Shown: positions 34,818-37,047 of the stretch, one piece after another | Numbering within the stretch: the stretch's first letter is position 1 | Layout of the letters: every line of letters begins with the position of its first letter | Assembly (NCBI GenBank): GCA_019347945.1 | Contig: JAHWKK010000006.1 | Location: 62,001 to 126,000, forward strand | Reading direction: 5' to 3' | Source: Acidobacteriota bacterium | GTDB taxonomy: Bacteria; Acidobacteriota; Thermoanaerobaculia; Gp7-AA8; JAHWKK01 | DNA: 64,000 nt | Notes under the pieces: model-generated | Told to the model about the DNA's origin: nothing | Seen by the model: the letters and a program-made list of their open reading frames with translations, nothing else | Databases searched by the model: none | Position numbers and translations under genes: made by a program

Positions 34818-34973
34818 TTACTCGGAATCGGGCCGCTCCGGAGCCGGCTGATCCTTCGGGCCGGGATGGTCCTCGCCCGATTTCTCGTCGTACTGGCTCT
34901 CCTCGGACGTATCCTTTTCTTCGGGTTCGGGATGCGCGGGATGCGGTCGGTTTTCTTCGCGTCGGTCTTCCAT
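34818..34973 (-). CDS. 51-residue charged, disordered small protein
   Basis: ATG 34973 shares its A with the L,D-transpeptidase stop (TGATG), and TAA is at 34818. The peptide is almost wholly polar (MEDRREENRPHPAHPEPEEK...). The tight 1-nt overlap on one side and 3-bp gap on the other suggest a real translated ORF, but no family is recognised and it is low complexity. Confidence 0.45.
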   Translation of the reverse strand: MEDRREENRPHPAHPEPEEKDTSEESQYDEKSGEDHPGPKDQPAPERPDSE

Positions 34974-35836
34974 CAGTAGATGATCACCTCGTCGCCGACG
35001 TTCGCCATCCGATACAGCCGGCCGATGTCTTCATTCGAGAGTCTGATGCAACCGTGCGACACGCTCTGTCCGAGCTGGGAAACGGCCTGCGTTCCATGTA
35101 GCGCGTAGCCATCGCCGAGATTCAGCCGGTAGTCGCCGAGCACGCCTTCGTACTCACGCGGTCGGGTACCGAGCGGCGGAACGACGAGCCTCCCCTGAAA
35201 CCAGATTTCCTGCCCGGCCGGCATCGTCCGGACGACCTGACCGTTGCGGATCTCGACGACGTCCCTACCGCTGACGCTGAGCATGTGCTCGGGCGTGCCG
35301 ATCGCCGAGTCACGGTCGAGTCTCACCATGTCTGCACCCGTGCTGTTCGCGATCTCAATGTAGTGCCAGTCCGGCGGCTTCCACACGGGGTCGGTTTCCT
35401 TCGAAATGATCTTGAACCTTCCGACGGGCGTCCTGAAGTCTCGGCGCCGCCCGTTCTGCACCAGGATGTCGCTCTTTCCGGTCGAGCAGACGGCTTCGAA
35501 AACGACCTCACCCTCCCGCCGCAAGTACACCTTGTTCTCCTCGGTCGACACCGTGATCACTTGGTTCGAATCCTGATGATCGCTGAGGGTCTCGTCGGAT
35601 GACTCCACTTCGCCCGACAGCTCGTCGAGCCGACCGGCCGCCGTCTCCATCTTCTCGCGGAGCTCGTCGAGGCGCTGCTGGCGCATCTCCTGGATCATCT
35701 CTTCGATCCGGTCGTAGCGCCGGTACTTCGCAGCCTCCTGGACATTGAGCGTTTCCGCCGCGACCGCCCAGGCCAGAAGTCCCACGGCCAGGACCAGCAG
35801 CGCCCAGGAGGCAATCAATCCAATCCATCGCTTCAT
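34973..35836 (-). CDS. L,D-transpeptidase (YkuD domain), membrane-anchored
   Basis: 287 residues. N-terminal transmembrane segment (LIASWALLVLAVGLLAWAVA), a coiled stretch (~35-85), then a YkuD domain. The catalytic motif is YALHGTQAVSQLGQSVSHGC followed by IRLSNEDI (His and the nucleophilic Cys in SHGCIRL). It cross-links peptidoglycan or attaches lipoproteins to it. The gene follows a paralogue that lacks this motif (35849) by 12 bp. Confidence 0.92.
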   Translation of the reverse strand: MKRWIGLIASWALLVLAVGLLAWAVAAETLNVQEAAKYRRYDRIEEMIQEMRQQRLDELREKMETAAGRLDELSGEVESSDETLSDHQDSNQVITVSTEENKVYLRREGEVVFEAVCSTGKSDILVQNGRRRDFRTPVGRFKIISKETDPVWKPPDWHYIEIANSTGADMVRLDRDSAIGTPEHMLSVSGRDVVEIRNGQVVRTMPAGQEIWFQGRLVVPPLGTRPREYEGVLGDYRLNLGDGYALHGTQAVSQLGQSVSHGCIRLSNEDIGRLYRMANVGDEVIIY

Positions 35837-35848
35837 TCAGTCGTCTCC

Positions 35849-36589
35849 TCAGTAGATGTAGATCTTCGTTCCCTCGCCGATGCGAGGCCAGATGGCTCTC
35901 ATGTCGCTCTCGGAGACCATGAAGGAACCGGGTTTGACGCCATCGAGAGGGCTTTCCTCGGAGGGCGTCGTATGAATCATGTAATCGTTCGGGAGCTCGA
36001 TCACGTAGCGGCCGAGGCCTCCCTTGATGGCCGGCAGAGAGGAGGGCACCTCTTCGCCCTTCATCAGATACACCCATTCCTGGACCTGCCAGGAGGGGGA
36101 GTACGACTTCCCGACCACTTCGAAAGCCCCTTTCAGAGGGACGAATGTCCAGACCTTCCCGTCCTTCCCCTCGATCTCCCTCTGCTCCCCAACCTCGACC
36201 GGCATCTCCCTGAGAACCTGGTCCGCGTACTGAAGCATCAGAGCCTTCTTCTCAGTATCGAGCGCGAGATAGAAGTTCTCGTCGTCGAGGTTTGCAATCA
36301 GCTGCTCCCGAGCCTGAAGCTCGCGCCGCAACTGCTCCTCGGTCAGATCCATCTCCGCCAGTTCGTCCTTGACCTCGTTGATCGCGACCGGCGAGGTCTG
36401 CTCGCTCGCGAGAACCCTCTCGAAATCCTCGGCCAGCGCTCTGCGATGCCAGGACGAGATCAGGAAAACGATCGCGGCCAGCAGAAGAATCGCCAGATTG
36501 AGCCACAGCGGCGGCCGGGGGGTGCGCCGCCGGTCGGGCGACTCCGGACGTTCTTCAGCCCGCCGGTCACTCTTGAGATTCAATGGCAT
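35849..36589 (-). CDS. Cysteine-free L,D-transpeptidase paralogue, probably inactive
   Basis: 246 residues from ATG 36589 (GGGAGG ~11 nt upstream; longer in-frame starts exist). Layout matches the neighbour: one transmembrane segment (LWLNLAILLLAAIVFLISSW), a coiled region (~75-130), then a beta domain ending YVIELPNDYMIHTTPSEESP and VKPGSFMVSESDMRAIWP. The HG-x(n)-SHGC motif is absent and there is no Cys anywhere, so transpeptidation by the usual mechanism is impossible. It may serve as a scaffold or partner of the active enzyme. Confidence 0.7.
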   Translation of the reverse strand: MPLNLKSDRRAEERPESPDRRRTPRPPLWLNLAILLLAAIVFLISSWHRRALAEDFERVLASEQTSPVAINEVKDELAEMDLTEEQLRRELQAREQLIANLDDENFYLALDTEKKALMLQYADQVLREMPVEVGEQREIEGKDGKVWTFVPLKGAFEVVGKSYSPSWQVQEWVYLMKGEEVPSSLPAIKGGLGRYVIELPNDYMIHTTPSEESPLDGVKPGSFMVSESDMRAIWPRIGEGTKIYIY

Positions 36590-36705: not shown

Positions 36706-37047
36706 ATGGCTGAGTCCAAAGCTGTCATCGAAGTCAATGACGAGAACTTCAAGAACGAAGTGATCGACTCCGAGATCCCGGTATTCGTCGACTTCTGGGC
36801 CCCCTGGTGCGCACCGTGCCGGTTCATGGCCCCCGCTCTCGACGAAGTGGCTCCGGAGTACGAGGGAAAAATCAAGATTGCCAAGGTCAACACCGAGGAG
36901 AATCAGCAGACCCCGATGTCGTACGGCATCATGGTTCTGCCGACGCTCGTCATGTTCAAGAAGGGTGAGGTCGTCGACCGGCGCCAGGGTGCGATGAACA
37001 AGGGGGCGCTCAAGGCGTTCCTCGACGAGCACGTCGACGTCAACTGA
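36706..37047 (+). CDS. trxA: Thioredoxin
   Basis: 113 residues. The fold and active site are standard: VFVDFWAPWCAPCRFMAPAL with the WCAPC redox pair (P at the third position is typical for this variant is WCGPC; here Ala). cis-Pro loop GIMVLPTLVMF. AAAGGAG lies 5 nt before ATG 36706. It reduces disulfides and could recycle the arsenate reductase. A strong terminator follows. Confidence 0.94.
   Translation: MAESKAVIEVNDENFKNEVIDSEIPVFVDFWAPWCAPCRFMAPALDEVAPEYEGKIKIAKVNTEENQQTPMSYGIMVLPTLVMFKKGEVVDRRQGAMNKGALKAFLDEHVDVN

Follow-up and report, generated by a model that had tools for sequence, protein, structure and literature searches.

L,D-Transpeptidases (LDTs) catalyze the 3-3 cross-linking of the cell wall, which is sensitive to carbapenems, and also anchor envelope proteins to it. 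An LDT in which an active YkuD domain is followed by a second, cysteine-less YkuD domain is known from Pseudomonas aeruginosa: LdtPae1 has QLGKIR where SHGCIR would be expected. In the available sections of the report, its authors state that this architecture is seen in no other LDT, leave the role of the dead domain open and speculate about peptidoglycan binding (PMC10434034). The locus described here resembles LdtPae1 in that a YkuD domain, here presumably active, is tied to a related cysteine-less one. LdtPae1, however, is a single chain with the active domain first, whereas here two adjacent genes are found and the dead one comes first. Moreover, the LDT and its cysteine-free neighbor, hereafter called the twin, each have a predicted N-terminal anchor of their own, and the twin carries KPGS rather than QLGKIR.

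The degenerate LytM (M23) regulators, such as DipM and ActS, use a dead peptidoglycan-enzyme domain to regulate wall enzymes. By analogy, and as far as the accessible parts of the sources describe them, they appear to be the best functional parallel to the twin, although they have another fold and belong to another enzyme class, and a regulatory role of the twin is only presumed. Serine-dependent chemistry on a YkuD-superfamily scaffold is represented by the YafK-type protein Lpg1514 of Legionella pneumophila, which, according to the available text, hydrolyzes beta-lactams through Ser132 and possesses the canonical Cys174 (PMC13400389). The twin, in contrast, is free of cysteine and has its serine on the cysteine position, whereas Ser132 of Lpg1514 lies elsewhere and Cys174 is kept. 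The same exchange of the nucleophile as in the twin is present in LdtMt2 C354S (8pxy) and Ldtfm C442S (2hkl), and both structures were matched by the model of the twin. The engineered LdtMt2 C354S has no transpeptidase activity in the part of the report at hand (PMC11410929). These two proteins are laboratory mutants with the rest of the site intact, whereas the twin has also lost the histidine of SHGC and the arginine. The part covered of a review on LDTs contains nothing on cysteine-less members, and "Acidobacteri" is absent from the review (PMC12729407). Among the matches listed from the open-access literature, none described a pseudo-LDT as a protein of its own whose gene lies next to that of an LDT. 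The dead domain of LdtPae1 and the LytM regulators are precedents for the twin, which is a separate, consistently linked polypeptide.

Organization of the Gene Pair

The pair is located on the minus strand of the window, i.e. the whole stretch of 64,000 nucleotides that was analyzed, with the twin gene upstream, the LDT gene downstream, and 12 nt between the two ORFs (Table 1). With a completeness of 99.65, the host genome comprises 3,724,673 bases in 49 contigs; it contains five PF03734 matches, the weakest of which is the twin. In BLASTP, twin and LDT shared 20% identity (E 3e-8), and hhalign of 19 twins against 17 partners (probability 98.4) aligned the domains to the last residue. According to the AlphaFold2 models and Kyte-Doolittle profiles, both proteins have a common layout leading from an N-terminal hydrophobic segment through helices to a C-terminal YkuD domain. 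An earlier note on this DNA had described two adjacent proteins of the same layout, the upstream one without any cysteine, and both statements were borne out: the ORFs lie as described, each with a hydrophobic N terminus and a YkuD domain, and the 246 residues of the twin include 0 Cys. For the part that the note took as a coiled coil, the models predict helices. The statement that the twin lacks SHGC was correct for the motif itself and had to be refined in that KPGS stands in its place, with the glycine kept, a serine on the cysteine position, and the base histidine retained.

Table 1. Features of the twin-LDT locus (window positions)
Feature	Position	Strand	Basis or remark
Twin gene, cysteine-free YkuD pseudoenzyme, membrane-anchored (predicted)	35849..36589	-	246 aa, ATG at 36589, stop included
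Probable transmembrane segment of the twin (residues 28-46, hydrophobic)	36452..36508	-	Kyte-Doolittle; model helix 28-61
Twin residues 47-103, helical stalk, approximate boundaries	36281..36451	-	Model helices 28-61, 67-79, 84-101
Twin residues 104-246, degenerate YkuD domain (predicted)	35852..36280	-	VIA-align range 103/104-246
Twin His206, on LDT base His247	35972..35974	-	hhalign
Twin Ser222 (KPGS), on LDT catalytic Cys263	35924..35926	-	hhalign, MAFFT
Partner gene, YkuD L,D-transpeptidase (LDT)	34973..35836	-	287 aa, stop included; PF03734, model, fold search
Hydrophobic segment at the N terminus of the LDT (residues 4-25), either anchor or signal peptide	35762..35827	-	Kyte-Doolittle; within model helix 3-84
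LDT His247 of HGT motif	35096..35098	-	Invariant in 17/17 aligned partners
LDT Cys263, SHGC nucleophile	35048..35050	-	Invariant in 17/17 aligned partners

The Partner LDT

The downstream protein matched PF03734 with 88.4 bits, above the curated cut-off of 23.4. Its motif is SHGC, and residues 117 and 263 are its only cysteines. The best 19-residue Kyte-Doolittle mean was 2.42, starting at residue 7. AlphaFold2 predicted a single long helix (residues 3-84) plus the YkuD domain, with low confidence for the stalk (block means 42-72). From family and motif, we infer that the LDT is catalytic and would form 3-3 cross-links or attach proteins to peptidoglycan. The partner in one genome (G015), which is split over two contigs, was excluded from the partner alignment and the trees. 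The second cysteine, Cys117 in CSTG (window 35486-35488), is nearly invariant in the partners; a cysteine of the CSTG type also occurs in many solo LDTs and is missing from the twin.

Predicted Fold of the Twin

The AlphaFold2 model of the twin, computed from a 19-row alignment, had a mean pLDDT of 82.2, and the ten-residue block means reached 91-97 from residue 111. The helices of the stalk were predicted at lower confidence (block means 52-77). When candidates from Foldseek were aligned by VIA-align, LDTs ranked at the top over model residues 103/104-246, namely 4lpq (Z 13.4, rmsd 2.5, 116 aligned), 1y7m (Z 13.3, rmsd 2.3, 105 aligned), and 5e51 (Z 13.2, rmsd 2.3, 114 aligned). The whole-query TM-scores of Foldseek were modest, 0.36-0.40 among the matches listed, and the N-terminal part of the twin stayed unmatched. 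The C-terminal domain of the twin is confidently predicted to have the YkuD fold. An unrelated fold was rejected because the best structural matches were YkuD transpeptidases.

Against PF03734, the twin scored 21.0 bits (E 5.5e-4), just below the curated cut-off of 23.4, and 13 of 19 relatives matched the family at E up to 0.1, the best at 2.8e-6. No LDT was retrieved when PDB chains were searched at the sequence level, whether the query was the twin itself or its profile. The M23 family was not among the Pfam matches of the twin at E up to 1, and the structural matches listed were YkuD. Hydrophobicity of the twin was highest from residue 28 (best 19-residue Kyte-Doolittle mean 2.45).

The Degenerate Active Site

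His206 and Ser222 of the twin are 16 residues apart, as are His247 and Cys263 of the LDT, and hhalign placed no gap between them. The same register was obtained in an 82-row MAFFT alignment. In the change from SHGC to KPGS, cysteine is replaced by serine and histidine by proline, glycine is kept, and the arginine two positions after the cysteine has become methionine or leucine. Lys219, Pro220, Gly221, and Ser222 are invariant in all 19 copies from the class of the host (clade A); residue 206 is histidine in 18 of them and glutamine in G002. A sequencing or frame error behind KPGS was rejected because 19 copies from 18 genomes have this motif. Seventeen of the 18 full-length class copies are free of cysteine, and the remaining one (G012) has a single cysteine. 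At the catalytic position itself, no cysteine occurs in the 19 clade-A copies, in a further pair found on a public contig (L082), or in five twins of a second clade (clade B, see below).

The former active-site loop of the twin has been rebuilt and is strongly conserved. Conservation was 0.84 for the former active-site block (residues 201-237) compared with 0.70 for the remaining domain. The best-conserved 17-residue stretches are located in the juxtamembrane tail (residues 19-35) and in the former active-site block (219-237). Residues 19-35 (RRSFPRPPLWLNL in most clade-A copies; window 36452-36589), which comprise the N-terminal tail and the start of the membrane segment, are the most conserved stretch of the protein. 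The conserved tail may bind an intracellular partner. The twin of G002, a 49-aa fragment at a contig end, was included in the alignment and left out of the trees.

Conservation of the Pair in Two Clades

The 148 genomes of the host class were searched for both proteins. Some match to the twin at E up to 1e-3 was obtained in 49 genomes and some match to the partner in 58. The twin proper was present in 18 of the 148 genomes with 19 copies, 18 of which were found at E 6.8e-50 or better; the other was a 48-residue fragment at a contig end in G002. The partner-type LDT occurred in the same 18 genomes. Twin and LDT were adjacent on one strand in 19/19 copies; for the 18 that are full-length, the gap ranged from -1 to +192 nt. 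In two members of the main carrier family (G004 and G005), both twin and partner-type LDT are absent. Solo LDTs occur in genomes without the twin. All 36 solo loci read, which derived from the PF03734 matches of the host and from the twin searches in class and phylum, have (S/T)HGC (THGC in L101). The motif was likewise present in 35 of 35 additional loci that came from the partner searches, some of whose genes are shared with the 36. One genome (G017) has two pairs on two contigs (L016 and L067), and KPGS is kept in both twins.

When the twin profile was run against 396 genomes sampled from the phylum, 79 were matched, and no match outside the host class exceeded 86.2 bits. A scan of public contigs with the clade-A profile, the patterns of which would miss clade B, yielded 18 loci. 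Seventeen lay on contigs that, judged by their length, had already been covered; the titles of these contigs were Acidobacteria, Acidobacteriota, or Thermoanaerobaculia. The remaining locus was a new pair. This clade-A pair (L082:10001-11650) resides on a contig titled Elusimicrobiota, which may reflect transfer or a misplaced contig. Single-sequence scans of genome contigs and viral contigs returned no relatives.

With the partner profile, a partner-type LDT was detected outside the host class in G451 (E 7.3e-58), and a cysteine-free twin-like gene is situated directly upstream of it. In the class of G451, which belongs to the same phylum, 5 of 193 genomes have a partner-type LDT, and the twin lies directly upstream in all five. 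These clade-B pairs (L152 in G451, L153, L154, L155, and L156) are divergent. Nine genomes of the clade-B family (f52) are without the partner-type LDT, and the twin was not found in any of the five of these that were searched. In clade B, the position of the base histidine is occupied by tyrosine in 5/5 twins and the cysteine site by serine in three, glycine in one, and alanine in one. None of the five has a cysteine in its last 165 residues; the twin of G499 has one in the hydrophobic segment. Thus, a Ser-His dyad is not what the pair conserves overall, and family-wide Ser-His catalysis is disfavored by clade B.

Evolution and Selection

In a tree of 82 rows, from which one solo LDT on a long branch (L002_solo) was excluded, 24 twins formed one clade (support 97/97) and 23 partners another (100/100), and each was split into A and B. 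This topology is in line with the pair having arisen once or having been transferred as a whole. A recent duplication of the twin from its neighbor was not supported, twins and partners being in separate clades. A common clade of twins plus partners had an AU p of 0.53, the held-together tree being 1.5 log units better, and an old common duplication is compatible with this result. The distances of twin and LDT were correlated with r 0.93 over 23 pairs and 0.60 over the 18 clade-A pairs, which is no more than expected from shared descent alone. Among three close genomes, the twin had a dN/dS of 0.14-0.17 (YN00, with NG86 as fallback), compared with 0.12-0.16 in the LDT. The values for the twin indicate purifying selection. 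By its kept predicted fold, the loss of the catalytic residue, and selection, the twin is classified as a YkuD pseudoenzyme, with inactivity being predicted.

Possible Functions of the Twin

The alignments and the model establish a predicted YkuD fold, the loss of the cysteine, conservation, and a location directly upstream of one LDT type wherever this LDT type was found. In our opinion, twin and LDT probably constitute a two-gene system in which a catalytic YkuD LDT is accompanied by a dedicated, membrane-anchored YkuD pseudoenzyme acting as a non-catalytic subunit or regulator. The persistence of the linkage in the relatives covered points to a non-catalytic protein that assists the enzyme as a subunit. 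In favor of this reading, clade B has retained the pair although its twins lack the base histidine (5/5) and, in part, the serine (2/5). The earlier note had proposed a pseudoenzyme partner for a peptidoglycan cross-linker, naming an unrelated fold as the outcome that would speak against it and conservation of the pair in relatives as a check. The YkuD fold of the best structural matches, the absence of the catalytic cysteine from every twin read, and the adjacency in both clades agree with this proposal; the partnership itself we infer. Both proteins would be anchored in the inner membrane with the N terminus inside and the YkuD domains in the periplasm, carried by helical stalks of similar length (~57 residues in the twin and ~65 in the LDT). 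The twin would assemble with the LDT via the membrane and stalk helices and would affect it. The degenerate domain, being non-catalytic, could hold a peptidoglycan stem or strand, e.g. the acceptor; alternatively, it could position and switch the catalytic domain of the LDT. If true, the pseudoenzyme that accompanies one type of LDT in two deep clades would represent a subunit or regulator of a kind not found described in the literature listed, and a natural Cys-to-Ser YkuD protein would offer a direct handle on the role of a dead YkuD domain, the question left open for LdtPae1.

Adjacency and co-occurrence would also fit a shared pathway without contact. The twin might be an independent peptidoglycan-binding or structural protein that is co-transcribed for a common envelope role and does not touch the LDT. 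Its fold and conserved pocket region are compatible with ligand binding, and peptidoglycan binding by a dead YkuD domain is the speculation put forward in the accessible text on LdtPae1 (PMC10434034). We regard such independence as unlikely, for twin and LDT type were gained or lost together, although solo LDTs exist without a twin. It is very improbable that the clade-A twin is instead a true enzyme in which a Cys-to-Ser exchange in the YkuD fold has made Ser222 the nucleophile, with His206 serving as the base, for hydrolase or acyltransferase chemistry. KPGS in 19/19 and His206 in 18/19 clade-A copies, at the spacing of the LDT His and Cys, would suit such an enzyme, as would the serine-dependent beta-lactam hydrolysis of the YafK relative in the part of that report available (PMC13400389). 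However, clade B has tyrosine for the histidine in 5/5 twins and glycine or alanine for the serine in 2/5, glutamine occupies the histidine position in clade-A G002, and the second histidine and the arginine after the cysteine are gone. Moreover, the active serine of Lpg1514 is at another position, and LdtMt2 C354S is inactive in the available text (PMC11410929). We likewise give little credence to a version confined to clade A, in which twins with Ser222, His206, and the invariant Lys219 would work in tandem with a cysteine-type LDT and clade B would have lost or never had this chemistry. It is scarcely conceivable that the twin is a duplicate in decay, on its way to becoming a pseudogene: its active site is degenerate, and the AU test leaves room for an old duplication, but the frame is open in the 18 full-length class copies, in L082, and in the five clade-B copies (G002 being cut by a contig end), dN/dS is that of purifying selection, and two deep clades exist.

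Gene Neighborhood

A conserved wider operon was not found. Five genes neighboring the pair in G016 and G012, encoding a porin-like protein, ZnuA, ABC-3, a CDP-alcohol transferase, and a rhomboid protein, had no match in the window. Around the 18 public-contig loci, some of which are cut by contig ends, the CDP-alcohol transferase was present in 12 and ZnuA plus ABC-3 in six. In several carriers (e.g. L083:6855-12287), the pair is located between a ZnuA/ABC-3 metal-uptake ABC system and a CDP-alcohol phosphatidyltransferase, an arrangement not seen in the window. A divergent thioredoxin gene (window 36706-37047) lies beside the twin gene, and thioredoxin was present at varying distance in 11 of the 18 public-contig loci.
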